A DNA stretch of 64,000 bases, from contig NZ_QJKB01000012.1 of assembly GCF_003201815.1 (NCBI RefSeq), positions 1 to 64,000 of the forward strand. The letters are read 5' to 3'. Of this stretch, positions 57,317-60,006 are shown piece after piece (the first letter of the stretch is position 1; the number at the start of each line of letters is the position of its first letter). Below the pieces are notes generated by a model. It did no database searches, was not told the origin of the DNA, and saw only the letters and a list, made by a program, of their open reading frames with translations. The position numbers and the translations under genes are program-made. Origin of the DNA: Undibacterium pigrum (GTDB lineage Bacteria; Pseudomonadota; Gammaproteobacteria; Burkholderiales; Burkholderiaceae_D).

Positions 57317-58378
57317 TTATCTGCGCTGTGAAAAATCCACCCCCATTTCTTTTGCCAGATGCAGATAATGCGCACTTGATTTTTCGTCCGCTGGCATGCC
57401 GGGTAGGCCGGTTTTTAAGAAATTTCCCAAATTGTAAGCAGCGATACCGTCACCAAGAGAGATGGCGCGCTTCAAGTAATCAAGTGCAAGACTACCGTCT
57501 ATGTCCATGCTGTAGCCAGTCGCTTGAATAATGCCAGCCATGCCCAATACCTGTGCATGATTTGTATCCAGTAATTCTTTTATGCAATTGATTGCGGCGT
57601 GCCCTTGTTCCCTGACCAGAGCATATGCCGCGTTTCGCAGTGCTTCCTGATTGGCAGGCATGTTGTATACATCGATGAATACCCGGTTTGAAACCCATTT
57701 CTGTATTTTAAATTCCAGGTCGACTCTGGCCAGGTACCCTTCTGTGTCGTAAGAAGCGTAGGTAATTGGTGCTATTGAACCTCCCATTATTATTCGTACG
57801 AATTCGAGAGGGCTACCCCAGCATTGTTCGTGTTCCAATTTTATGCTTGGGTCCAATCGTACGTAATTGTCCGTTCCGCAAGTGAGGCATTTGCAAGCGG
57901 TACGTCTGCGAAAGCGCAAGTTATACAATCGCTGGAATTCCAGGTCTGATAAATCCAGTAAACGGTCTGTGATACCTTTACTGGCTTCCCCATCCCAGCA
58001 TTTGCGCAATCCGGCTGCAATGTCGAACTTCCGCAAATCAGGCAGGTATTCTGCCCAGCTTGGTTTATTACATTCAAAACACCAGCATTCTTCTTTAAGT
58101 ACGCTTGGATGCAAAATGTCCAATGCCGCAAAGTAAGTCTCGAATTCTGCTATTGGAATATGATCGAGTGCAGACTTGTCTCCGCCAGGCATCCGACAGG
58201 TAGCATTGAGTTCATAGCAAAGAAAATTTTCTGGAAAATAAAAGCATTCAGAACACCCCGTGCATTTCAGATACATGGCAAGCCTCATGTCTGGAAAGGT
58301 CGGCCATTCTAATGAGCCGCTCTCAGTTTGCCTAGCCCATTTCCTGATTAAATTTGCAGCAAGCTGCAGCTTTGCCAC
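57317..58378 (-). CDS. Cys-pair and Sel1-repeat protein, paralog B
   Basis: A 353-codon frame with the same plan as paralog A: CTGC (39-42), CWCFEC, CLTCG, EQCWGSPLEFV, then Sel1-like repeats (SLALDYLKRAISLGDGIAAYNLGNFLKTGLPGMPADEKSSAHYLHLAKEMG). The GTG at 58378 has no ribosome site, whereas GAGG lies six bases before an ATG at 58276, giving a start MYLKCTGC that aligns with paralog A; the true protein may thus be about 319 residues. Function unknown; a binding or scaffold role is inferred from Sel1 repeats. Confidence 0.72.
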   Translation of the reverse strand: MAKLQLAANLIRKWARQTESGSLEWPTFPDMRLAMYLKCTGCSECFYFPENFLCYELNATCRMPGGDKSALDHIPIAEFETYFAALDILHPSVLKEECWCFECNKPSWAEYLPDLRKFDIAAGLRKCWDGEASKGITDRLLDLSDLEFQRLYNLRFRRRTACKCLTCGTDNYVRLDPSIKLEHEQCWGSPLEFVRIIMGGSIAPITYASYDTEGYLARVDLEFKIQKWVSNRVFIDVYNMPANQEALRNAAYALVREQGHAAINCIKELLDTNHAQVLGMAGIIQATGYSMDIDGSLALDYLKRAISLGDGIAAYNLGNFLKTGLPGMPADEKSSAHYLHLAKEMGVDFSQRR

Positions 58379-58637: not shown

Positions 58638-59198
58638 ATGAATCCATGGACCCCCGATATCTATGAAAAAGCCTGGTCGTTTTCATCGCGCCAGCATAGT
58701 GGGCAAACCTATGGCGGCAAGGTGGAAGGTGAGCGGATTGAATACATCAACCATATCGCCAGCGTCGCCATGGAAGTGATCTGGGCCTTGCAAACCAATA
58801 CCACGGCTGATGGGGCGCTGGCGGTGCAATGTGCACTCTTGCATGACACCATAGAAGATACCAGTGCCAGTTACGATTTGTTGAAGCAGGAATTTGGCCT
58901 GGCCGTGGCCGATGGGGTGCAAGCTCTTTCCAAGAATACTGCACTGCCGACCAAGGCAGAGCAAATGCGCGACAGCCTGGACCGCATACGGCAACAACCT
59001 GCTGAAATCTGGATGGTCAAGATGGCTGACCGCATCACCAACCTGTATCACCCGCCGCATTACTGGGATAATGAAAAAATTCTGGCTTATCGCGATGAAG
59101 CACAGCTCATCCATGATGAATTGCTGACTGCCGATGTTGGCCTGGCGCAGCGCTTGCAGGCAAAGATCAATGCCTATCCGCAGTTTCTGAAAAAATAA
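58638..59198 (+). CDS. HD-domain hydrolase, small (p)ppGpp-hydrolase-like
   Basis: A 186-residue HD-family protein similar in length and motifs to MESH1-type small alarmone hydrolases: HSGQTYGGK, YINHIASVAM, the metal-binding pair in ALLHDTIEDT, and KMADRITNLYHPP. No synthetase, TGS or ACT domain is present. It would cleave (p)ppGpp or a related nucleotide; the assignment is by motif only. An AAAGGGA ribosome site precedes the ATG. The promoter of the threonine-rich leader begins 12 bases after its stop. Confidence 0.8.
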   Translation: MNPWTPDIYEKAWSFSSRQHSGQTYGGKVEGERIEYINHIASVAMEVIWALQTNTTADGALAVQCALLHDTIEDTSASYDLLKQEFGLAVADGVQALSKNTALPTKAEQMRDSLDRIRQQPAEIWMVKMADRITNLYHPPHYWDNEKILAYRDEAQLIHDELLTADVGLAQRLQAKINAYPQFLKK

Positions 59199-59209: not shown

Positions 59210-59238
59210 TTGACTATTGCTTTTGCAATAACTACACT
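59210..59238 (+). promoter_or_regulatory. Sigma70 promoter of the attenuator
   Basis: TTGACT (59210-59215), a 17-base spacer and TACACT (59233-59238). The spacer contains the inverted repeat ATTGC-TTTT-GCAAT (59216-59229), a possible operator. Transcription would start near 59244-59246, practically at the leader ATG. Confidence 0.7.
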
Positions 59239-59245
59239 CTCCCGC

Positions 59246-59350
59246 ATGATATTTCAATTGACCACCACGACCAGCCTCACCACCACGATTACCGTGGCTG
59301 CCGCGACTACCACGGGTAGCAGCGGGGTTGGCTGGCATATGCTTGATTGA
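59246..59350 (+). CDS. Threonine-rich leader peptide
   Basis: A 34-codon frame whose product begins MIFQLTTTTSLTTTITV and continues AAATTTGSSGVGWHMLD. Eleven of the 34 residues are threonine, ten of them in the clusters TTTT, TTT and TTT. It has no visible ribosome site and its ATG lies about where transcription should begin, so it may be read as a leaderless message. Its stop is 36 bases before the terminator stem. The composition parallels the thr operon leader peptide of enterobacteria; here the downstream gene is an isochorismatase-family hydrolase. Confidence 0.7.
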   Translation: MIFQLTTTTSLTTTITVAAATTTGSSGVGWHMLD

Positions 59351-59416
59351 GACATCACTGGTAGTGAGAAAACTACCTGATACAGCAAACCCCGCCAGCG
59401 ATGAGCGGGGTTTTTT
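59271..59416 (+). promoter_or_regulatory. Attenuator: alternative hairpins and terminator
   Basis: Segment 1, CCAGCC (59271-59276, inside the Thr codons), can pair with GGCTGG (59330-59335). Segment 2, GCGGGGTT-G-GCTG (59322-59334), can pair with CAGC-A-AACCCCGC (59383-59395), forming an antiterminator of 8+4 bp. Segment 3, AAACCCCGC (59387-59395), otherwise pairs with GCGGGGTTT (59405-59413), a terminator followed by TTT. Stalling on Thr codons would favour the antiterminator. Confidence 0.75.
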
Positions 59417-59463
59417 CTTGCCGGTACGCTGGCAATCTGACGATGAAAAAAGGAGTTATGAAG

Positions 59464-60006
59464 ATGGAGCAACAATCATATAACAAGCCTGCTGTACTGG
59501 TCATTGATATGCAGGTGGGTCTGTTCCAGGGTGGGCGCACAATCCATGCCGCTGAACAGCTGTTGGAGAACGTCAACCTTGTGCTGACCAGGGCGCATGC
59601 TGCCGGTGTACCGGTATTTGCCGTGCGCCACACAGGTCCGCAAGGCTCACCGATAGAAGCAGGCAGTGCCAACTGGCAAATCATGCCCACACTGAAAATT
59701 GATATGGAGAGGGATACCGTATTTGAAAAAACCAGACCCAGCTGCTTTGAAGGCACGGACTTACTGGCACAATTGCAGGCGAAAGGCATACAGGAACTGA
59801 TCATCACCGGCCTGAAAACCCAGTACTGCGTCGATGCCAATTGCCGCGCCGCCAGTGAGCTGGGCTTCAAGGTCATCCTGGTAGAAGATGCACATAGTTG
59901 TAATGATACAGAGTTGCTGCCTGCCGATACCATCATCGCGCATCACAATATGACTTTGCATGGCTTGTTTGCCAGCCTGATCAAGACTGAGGATTTGCGT
60001 TTCTAG
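59464..60006 (+). CDS. Isochorismatase-family cysteine hydrolase
   Basis: A 180-residue hydrolase of the isochorismatase-like superfamily. The catalytic triad is visible as D15 (VLVIDMQVGLF), K89 (VFEKTRPSCF) and C122 (TGLKTQYCVDANCRAA). Family members split amides, N-carbamoyl compounds or isochorismate; the specific substrate cannot be told. The ATG at 59464 has AGGAG eight bases before it, whereas the ATG at 59458 would have only two, so I use 59464. Expression should depend on the upstream threonine-type attenuator. Confidence 0.85.
   Translation: MEQQSYNKPAVLVIDMQVGLFQGGRTIHAAEQLLENVNLVLTRAHAAGVPVFAVRHTGPQGSPIEAGSANWQIMPTLKIDMERDTVFEKTRPSCFEGTDLLAQLQAKGIQELIITGLKTQYCVDANCRAASELGFKVILVEDAHSCNDTELLPADTIIAHHNMTLHGLFASLIKTEDLRF

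Follow-up and report, generated by a model that had tools for sequence, protein, structure and literature searches.

According to the textbook view, amino-acid attenuators regulate the synthesis of amino acids. Similar leaders are, however, also found in front of genes that protect the cell: in Streptomyces, the gene of an indolmycin-resistant TrpRS is reportedly governed by a ribosome-mediated attenuator, and bmrCD of Bacillus subtilis is reported to be a resistance gene under the same type of control. The leader analyzed here resembles these two in that peptide stalling would control a protective gene rather than a synthesis pathway, and differs from them in effector and sensor. Attenuator peptides can also be leaderless: the trpL ORF of Sinorhizobium meliloti is located at the 5' end of its transcript (PMC7298713), and a leaderless leader peptide is named for ilvB of Corynebacterium glutamicum in a title cited in PMC4046766. 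These share with the present leader an ORF at the 5' end or without a ribosome-binding site, but they control amino-acid synthesis operons, whereas the start of the hydrolase leader is predicted from promoter spacing alone. In Escherichia coli, thrL exhibits a Thr-rich peptide, a Thr run ending just before a G-rich segment and a terminator directly thereafter, all of which recur here. However, thrL controls thrA and the following genes, while in the family described below the target is a hydrolase gene, the leader ORF usually begins at the predicted 5' end of the transcript and, outside of Undibacterium, the Shine-Dalgarno sequence of the gene is often hidden.

The present locus is located in the first 64,000 nucleotides of contig NZ_QJKB01000012.1 of Undibacterium pigrum, a stretch referred to as the window. 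Its leader is, with high probability, a ribosome-mediated attenuator that senses aminoacylated tRNA-Thr and controls an isochorismatase-family hydrolase. The logic of such a switch is known; what appears to be new, judged from sequence comparison, is the hydrolase target, the broad and old association between leader and gene, the frequent predicted leaderless start, a likely Shine-Dalgarno control in many members and the existence of codon-swapped sister elements. Literature searches returned nothing on a Thr leader combined with this hydrolase.

The leader in Undibacterium

The promoter, the Thr-rich reading frame, the pairing of segments 2 and 3 over 8 + 4 bp and the 9-bp stem of segments 3 and 4 followed by T's, all proposed in a sequence-only reading of this DNA, were confirmed base by base (Table 1). 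The regulated gene is, as that reading had proposed, an isochorismatase-like cysteine hydrolase (PF00857) and not a threonine biosynthesis gene. Its 1:2, 2:3, 3:4 logic stands insofar as a Thr-codon attenuator precedes the hydrolase, but the segment 1 it had named was dropped: CCAGCC (59271-59276) is complementary to GGCTGG (59330-59335) in the window only, i.e., in one of five species, and the conserved 1:2 hairpin is CTACC/GGTAG instead.

Table 1. Elements of the leader and its target gene in the window, with the Met-codon sister leaders in the last line.
Feature	Position	Strand	Remarks
Sigma-70-type promoter, TTGACT (59210-59215)-N17-TACACT (59233-59238)	59210..59238	+	hexamers identical in 5/5 Undibacterium loci
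Leader ORF, 34 codons, 11 Thr, MIFQLTTTTSLTTTITVAAATTTGSSGVGWHMLD, stop 59348-59350	59246..59350	+	read from sequence; first bases of Thr codons: 59261, 59264, 59267, 59270, 59279, 59282, 59285, 59291, 59306, 59309, 59312
Thr codon run (putative sensor), ACC/ACG/ACT codons	59261..59314	+	Thr kept, third bases vary across family
Conserved 1:2 hairpin, CTACC 59307-59311 / GGTAG 59315-59319, end of Thr codons	59307..59319	+	
Segment 2, GCGGGGTT 59322-59329 and GCTG 59331-59334; antiterminator 5' half, within leader ORF	59322..59334	+	
Intervening hairpin GGTAGT/ACTACC, one compensatory change (genome G019)	59360..59377	+	between segments 2 and 3
Segment 3, CAGC 59383-59386 and AACCCCGC 59388-59395; partner of segment 2 (antiterminator) or 4 (terminator)	59383..59395	+	
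Intrinsic terminator 3:4, AAACCCCGC 59387-59395 with GCGGGGTTT 59405-59413, T run 59411-59416	59387..59416	+	stem identical in 5/5 species
Terminator-loop GCCAGCG 59394-59400 / complement CGCTGGC 59427-59433 upstream of gene; possible long-range contact	59394..59433	+	
Shine-Dalgarno AAGGAG of hydrolase gene	59450..59455	+	
Isochorismatase-family cysteine hydrolase, 180 aa from conserved ATG	59464..60006	+	59458 = in-frame alternative start
Met leaders directly before GNAT acetyltransferase of ~155 aa	L224-L234, L236, L239-L246, L248		Pseudomonas sample

The locus thus combines a promoter-proximal ORF rich in one codon type, mutually exclusive antiterminator and terminator helices that share segment 3 in silico, and an intrinsic terminator between leader and gene, as expected of an amino-acid attenuator. 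Since the -10 hexamer ends 7 bases before the leader ATG, the transcript is predicted to start at or next to the leader AUG, giving a leaderless leader peptide. The fold of the leader RNA has a z-score of -6.8 and none of 200 dinucleotide shuffles was equally stable. A consensus terminator scan of the window did not report the 3:4 terminator; the scan allows loops of up to 8, and the loop of 9 present here is the probable reason. The match between terminator loop and downstream complement, determined by eye, comprises 7 bases in the window and about six in two relatives, contains one mismatch in the other two and is longer in some Pseudomonas.

No Rfam family accounts for the leader. RF00506 (Thr_leader) gave no match at E up to 1 between positions 58000 and 61000 of the window, none of 118 relatives reached its cut-off, and the target differs as well, RF00506 being defined by Thr biosynthesis genes and the present gene belonging to PF00857. 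Weak RF00506 matches in 62 of the relatives were taken, as a group, to be terminators. RF00513 (Trp_leader) reached 25 bits against a cut-off of 41, with a single Trp codon in the leader, and two microRNA matches in the window likewise fell below cut-off. Rfam yielded nothing over cut-off in the window and, for 17 further loci, only a TPP riboswitch and tRNA.

Among 118 genomes, orthologues of the hydrolase were identified in only four others, all Undibacterium, at 84-86% identity, and the next place followed at 39%. A separate search listed the hydrolase in Undibacterium umbellatum and a Burkholderiales MAG, together with a relative in Bacillus at 33% identity. The leader-plus-terminator arrangement, which had been predicted to recur upstream of orthologues, was searched for with R1, a covariance model of the five Undibacterium leaders. 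In 43 Undibacterium genomes, R1 recovered these five at 179-204 bits, each preceding the same isochorismatase-family hydrolase. Orthologues without a leader and leaders without alternating pairing, the outcomes against which the prediction had been set, were looked for and not found. The next R1 match, at 27 bits, was rejected, being on reading a gene end with a terminator. Weak matches from Undibacterium (10) and a family sample (11; one in common, hence 20 loci) were also rejected: none of those properly framed, which leaves aside the shortened loci L060, L061 and L066, showed such a Thr leader. They are mostly gene ends followed by a terminator (L049 and L053 are neither), and some presumably resemble 5S rRNA.

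Across the five leaders, the residues GSSGVG are conserved together with the promoter hexamers, the ORF start, the stretches of Thr codons and segments 2, 3 and 4. From the ORF start to segment 2, alignment gaps span 3, 9 and 15 columns, all multiples of three; a one-base gap follows after segment 2, in the last leader codons, and shifts the stop. At one extreme (G019), the stop codon is located right at the end of segment 2, and at the other (window), it follows 13 bases later, so that a ribosome terminating there would shield segment 2 at least partly. Paired cells amount to 100% for the 1:2 hairpin and the terminator, 97% for the middle hairpin and 95% for the antiterminator 2:3 helix, one position of which is G-C, G-U or A-U depending on the species. 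Shuffle controls with five sequences are not decisive, as they reached the observed score in 56 of 500 (antiterminator) and 114 of 500 cases. The terminator fold is more stable than the forced antiterminator in all five species, by 1.3 to 9.6 kcal/mol, and the switch would therefore have to rest on kinetics.

On one side, the leader and hydrolase pair adjoins an HD-domain (RelA/SpoT-like) gene, and on the other, a gene without family assignment. One genome (G039) carries both flanking genes without leader or hydrolase, and in a second (G004), the HD gene is followed by creD, again without either; leader and hydrolase therefore seem to come or go together. The HD gene (58638-59198 in the window) precedes the leader in each of the five carriers and encodes a stand-alone HD_4-domain protein with kinship to the hydrolase domains of RelA/SpoT.

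Distribution and architecture of the wider family

A tblastn search of plasmid records returned 570 records, and the best 15 of these matched at 46-56% identity in Burkholderia, Paraburkholderia, Pseudomonas, Pantoea, Duffyella and Aeromonas. A Thr-rich ORF starts 148-182 bases before the match in seven of eight plasmid loci inspected; the eighth, in Aeromonas, has none. The hydrolase gene on the Pseudomonas silvicola plasmid is broken. In a profile search built on 12 sequences, the subfamily scored at least 237 bits, as opposed to at most 176 (phylum sample) and 161 (order sample) for other hydrolases, and was present in 7 of 398 and 7 of 300 genomes, respectively, with the genome of the window counted in each. 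It was further detected in at least 55 of 149 Pseudomonas-group genomes and at least 11 of 198 genomes of the family of G722 (E ≤ 1e-60; lowest score 225 bits).

A leader is present at 53 of the 55 Pseudomonas-group hydrolase loci. A fixed rule was applied that asks for at least four Thr in nine residues and for an ORF beginning 110-320 bases ahead of the Asp motif. It assigned a Thr-rich leader to 81 of the 85 parsed clade loci, the exceptions being L099, L145, L176 and L198; with two unparsed loci found by the model R2 introduced below (L101, L199), the count is 83 of 87. The same rule was satisfied by none of 42 other isochorismatase-family loci and by 16 of 405 mononucleotide-shuffled upstream regions. 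A maximum-likelihood tree was built from 111 proteins, 85 of the subfamily and 26 others, and rooted at the midpoint. The subfamily forms one clade in it, with support of 100/96, that spans Pseudomonas, Enterobacterales and Burkholderiales, i.e., beta- and gammaproteobacteria. L176, which has no leader, branches first and the other three loci without one are nested inside; the leader is therefore old in the clade and was apparently lost three times.

The covariance model R2, built together with alignment A10 from 37 sequences without Undibacterium, scores the window leader at 42.9 bits. It also matches E. coli thrL (L298, K-12 MG1655 190-306) at 41.0 bits, while several Enterobacterales-type family leaders, at 26-31 bits, stay below thrL. 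The score alone therefore does not prove that the Undibacterium leader shares its ancestry with the others; rather than by score, it is tied to the family by the orthologous gene, its position, the promoter spacing and the CCCCGCCAGC(G/A)ATG core. The likeness of thrL to the new family hints either at a common origin or at strong convergence.

Promoter scoring at 36 distances from the leader ATG gave one sharp peak. In 65 of 81 leaders, 6-8 bases separate the end of the best predicted promoter from the ATG; L107, L102 and L170, all Enterobacterales-type, are among the misfits. The best Shine-Dalgarno match upstream of the leader comprises 2 or 3 of 6 bases in 51 leaders, 4 in 29 and 5 in one. 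The family leader is thus predicted to begin usually at the transcript 5' end.

Outside of Undibacterium, alignment A7 covers 61 of 76 regions; 15 rows (plasmid-record, Enterobacterales-type and two divergent ones) were left out because they align poorly. The 1:2 stem joins CACGACCGC, which comprises the final Thr codons and one Ala codon, to GGCGGGTCGTG in 80% of cells, and GGCGGG pairs with the CCCGCC of the terminator as 2:3 stem in 91.5% of cells, in the latter case without covariation in A7. Only 10 (2:3) and 6 (1:2) of 76 regions exceed the 95th shuffle percentile for these stems. The terminator, GGCCCCGCC..GGACGGGGCC, is followed by T's in many Pseudomonas.

Between terminator and gene, a further strand can pair with the Shine-Dalgarno sequence of the hydrolase. 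Its sequence is lineage-specific and the pairing is kept, the pairs being TTGCTCC/GGAGCAA, GTTTCTCC/GGAGAAAC, CCTTGCGT/ACGCAAGG or TCTCCGTTCA/TGAATGGAGA. The covering stem lies above the 95th shuffle percentile in 42 of 76 regions (about four expected), and one of its column pairs shows 14 double changes. Compared with versions slid by 1-3 columns, the structure has 81% as opposed to at most 53% paired cells, with hardly any difference in covariation measures and a poor alignment of A7 there. The anti-Shine-Dalgarno strand has alternative partners in the 3' half of the terminator (GGACGGG/CCCGTCC) or in its loop (GCCAGCGATG/CGTCGCTGGC), and in 39 of 76 regions (about four expected), such pairing between the terminator and the sequence ahead of the gene lies above the 95th percentile of shuffles. 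From these features, we infer that antitermination may be coupled to Shine-Dalgarno release in members outside of Undibacterium.

It could even be argued that Shine-Dalgarno release, and hence translation, is the main regulated step, with the terminator secondary. The frequency of covering stems whose sequences differ by lineage and several Enterobacterales-type members without a clear T run agree with this view. However, T runs follow the stem in Undibacterium as well as in many Pseudomonas, and the window, although it contains the complement of the loop, yielded no established hairpin of this kind over the Shine-Dalgarno sequence. We consider this view rather unlikely.

Sister elements with other codons and targets

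In the Pseudomonas sample, R2 matches (E ≤ 1e-4) occur in 71 of 149 genomes, many of them away from the hydrolase. Thirty-two such places, with few of the weakest matches among them, were read. Twenty of these exhibit Met codons instead of Thr codons (e.g., MTYTRRMNMMCSSMTASGGP) in front of a small GNAT acetyltransferase gene (Table 1), and L243, whose leader is visible in L268, is a further case. Two places are additional hydrolase copies, both broken, and six are without an intact target of these kinds; no threonine gene was found among the targets read. The predicted promoter ends 6 bases before the ATG in all 19 Met leaders scored, and for the 21 second-locus leaders, this distance is 6 (20 leaders) or 7 (one leader). 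The GNAT family carries the leader at 18 of 30 loci and, by pattern search, at none of 13 further loci; consequently, the Met leader belongs to a subgroup of that family.

A strict pattern, fitted by 47 of 96 leaders, was used to compare one pair of the 1:2 stem between both types, the other 49 remaining uncounted. This pair is C-G in 34 of 35 Thr leaders, whereas among 12 Met leaders it is U-A in nine and U-G in three. The change from ACG to ATG is thus accompanied by a change of the partner base, which argues that codon identity is the signal.

Further exchanges were observed in single genomes. Two near-identical copies in G1048 (L222, L223) place nine consecutive Thr codons before an MFS transporter gene, whose nearest relatives are MdtH and YdeE, both far below their cut-offs; the hydrolase locus of this genome (L145) is without a leader. 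A single leader, L237 (G1053:C63, 301-425), has Ile codons at the three positions otherwise taken by Met (MTTQSRMHIIRSSIFAFGGA); the GNAT gene that follows it is broken. Leader remnants were seen at L247 (G1067:C1), before a gene that by eye resembles an IS3-type transposase, and, with Thr codons and no hydrolase thereafter, at L235 and L250.

Proposed mechanism and role of the hydrolase

In the proposed model, a ribosome supplied with ample Thr-tRNA would translate the Thr codons up to the stop and cover segment 2, or the 1:2 hairpin would form; in either case, the 3:4 terminator would arise and transcription would end. If Thr-tRNA is short, the ribosome would halt in the Thr run and cover segment 1, leaving segment 2 free for pairing with segment 3, and the hydrolase gene would be transcribed. 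In many members outside of Undibacterium, a second layer is likely, in which the freed terminator half or loop would bind the anti-Shine-Dalgarno strand and its capture would release the Shine-Dalgarno sequence of the hydrolase gene. The best inference, already drawn in the sequence-only reading, is that the hydrolase would be induced when charged tRNA-Thr runs low. It could accordingly serve as a stand-alone enzyme of the detoxification type, called up by failed charging of tRNA-Thr upon Thr shortage or in the presence of a threonyl-tRNA synthetase inhibitor.

The protein itself is a clear member of PF00857 (128.1 bits against a cut-off of 27) and the residues Asp15, Lys89 and Cys122 are invariant in alignment A9. 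Its AlphaFold model has a mean pLDDT of 96, and the PDB matches listed are isochorismatase-like hydrolases. The fold and the Asp-Lys-Cys residues are shared with 3oqp, 5hwg, PA1677 (8cib), YecD, RutB and biuret hydrolase; identity to these hydrolases is, however, only 20-30%, and the leader-bearing clade stands apart from the 26 other hydrolases in the tree. With regard to the substrate classes known for this superfamily (isochorismate, nicotinamide, biuret, ureidoacrylate), all NCBIfam equivalogs listed score far below their cut-offs.

The targets of the sister elements, an acetyltransferase behind Met codons and an MFS transporter behind Thr codons, point to detoxification. Tentatively, the scaffold can be regarded as a codon-exchangeable sensor of failing aminoacylation, in which Thr codons, in response to ThrRS inhibitors (e.g., borrelidin or obafluorin) or Thr antimetabolites, would be assigned to the hydrolase or MFS exporter and Met codons (possibly also Ile codons, at one broken locus) to the GNAT protein. 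It might thereby arm stand-alone genes of self-protection, and the hydrolase might inactivate the same inhibitor by which the ribosome is stalled; we regard this reading as possible, though far from assured. Ribosome stops at Thr codons become more frequent under the ThrRS inhibitor borrelidin (PMC13410324). Obafluorin, a ThrRS inhibitor from P. fluorescens, is active only as long as its lactone is intact, and a second ThrRS is present in producers (PMC10619133). A hydrolase under a Thr attenuator could fit a defence against compounds of this kind.

Alternatively, the same attenuator could control an enzyme of metabolism by which threonine or nitrogen is released or spared, in ordinary feedback of the end-product type. 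The classical Thr attenuator, thrL before thrA, does control Thr synthesis, and amide hydrolases such as RutB, biuret hydrolase and maleamate hydrolase are among the structural neighbours. For the role in threonine or related amide metabolism that the sequence-only reading had considered, no positive evidence emerged: hom, the one gene among hom, thrB and thrC that was looked up in the window's genome, carries no such leader, the annotation around five plasmid loci names no Thr gene and no NCBIfam equivalog reaches its cut-off. Moreover, the hydrolase neighbours differ between lineages (in part of this set, a minority of frames was identified), no conserved operon partner was found among the neighbourhoods inspected, and an acetyltransferase and an MFS transporter are the targets of the sister elements. 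We therefore judge a metabolic role to be unlikely.

Sensing of a ribosome-targeting, chloramphenicol-like drug instead of tRNA charging is still less probable. Chloramphenicol stalls ribosomes most strongly after Ala, Ser or Thr (PMC12121999), the present leaders are rich in Thr, and drug-sensing leaders are known. However, in a 9-residue stretch placed on the Thr cluster, Thr occupies 487 of 728 cells, with all four Thr codons occurring, as opposed to 70 for Ser and Ala together, and the Met codons on the sister scaffold are not predicted by the chloramphenicol context rule. A constitutive upstream terminator next to an unrelated Thr-rich ORF, i.e., no switch at all, would agree with the very strong predicted terminator but is scarcely credible, since the reading frame of the ORF, the identity of the Thr residues, the segments and the gene are conserved together across beta- and gammaproteobacteria.

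Returning to the tRNA-Thr attenuator, its significance lies in its conserved position before a non-biosynthetic enzyme and in sisters that exchange both the sensed codon and the controlled gene. If the model is correct, screening of compounds that starve the cell of charged tRNA-Thr would offer a direct route to the function of the hydrolase, the leaders would become a means of finding genes that defend against tRNA-synthetase inhibitors, and the family would provide a natural series of codon-swapped attenuators for studying how codon identity sets the signal.

In some Pseudomonas, a 2-hydroxyacid dehydrogenase gene is located downstream of the hydrolase. At L105 (3592-3711), a TPP riboswitch (74 bits) lies downstream of a Pantoea agglomerans copy of the hydrolase and precedes thi genes.
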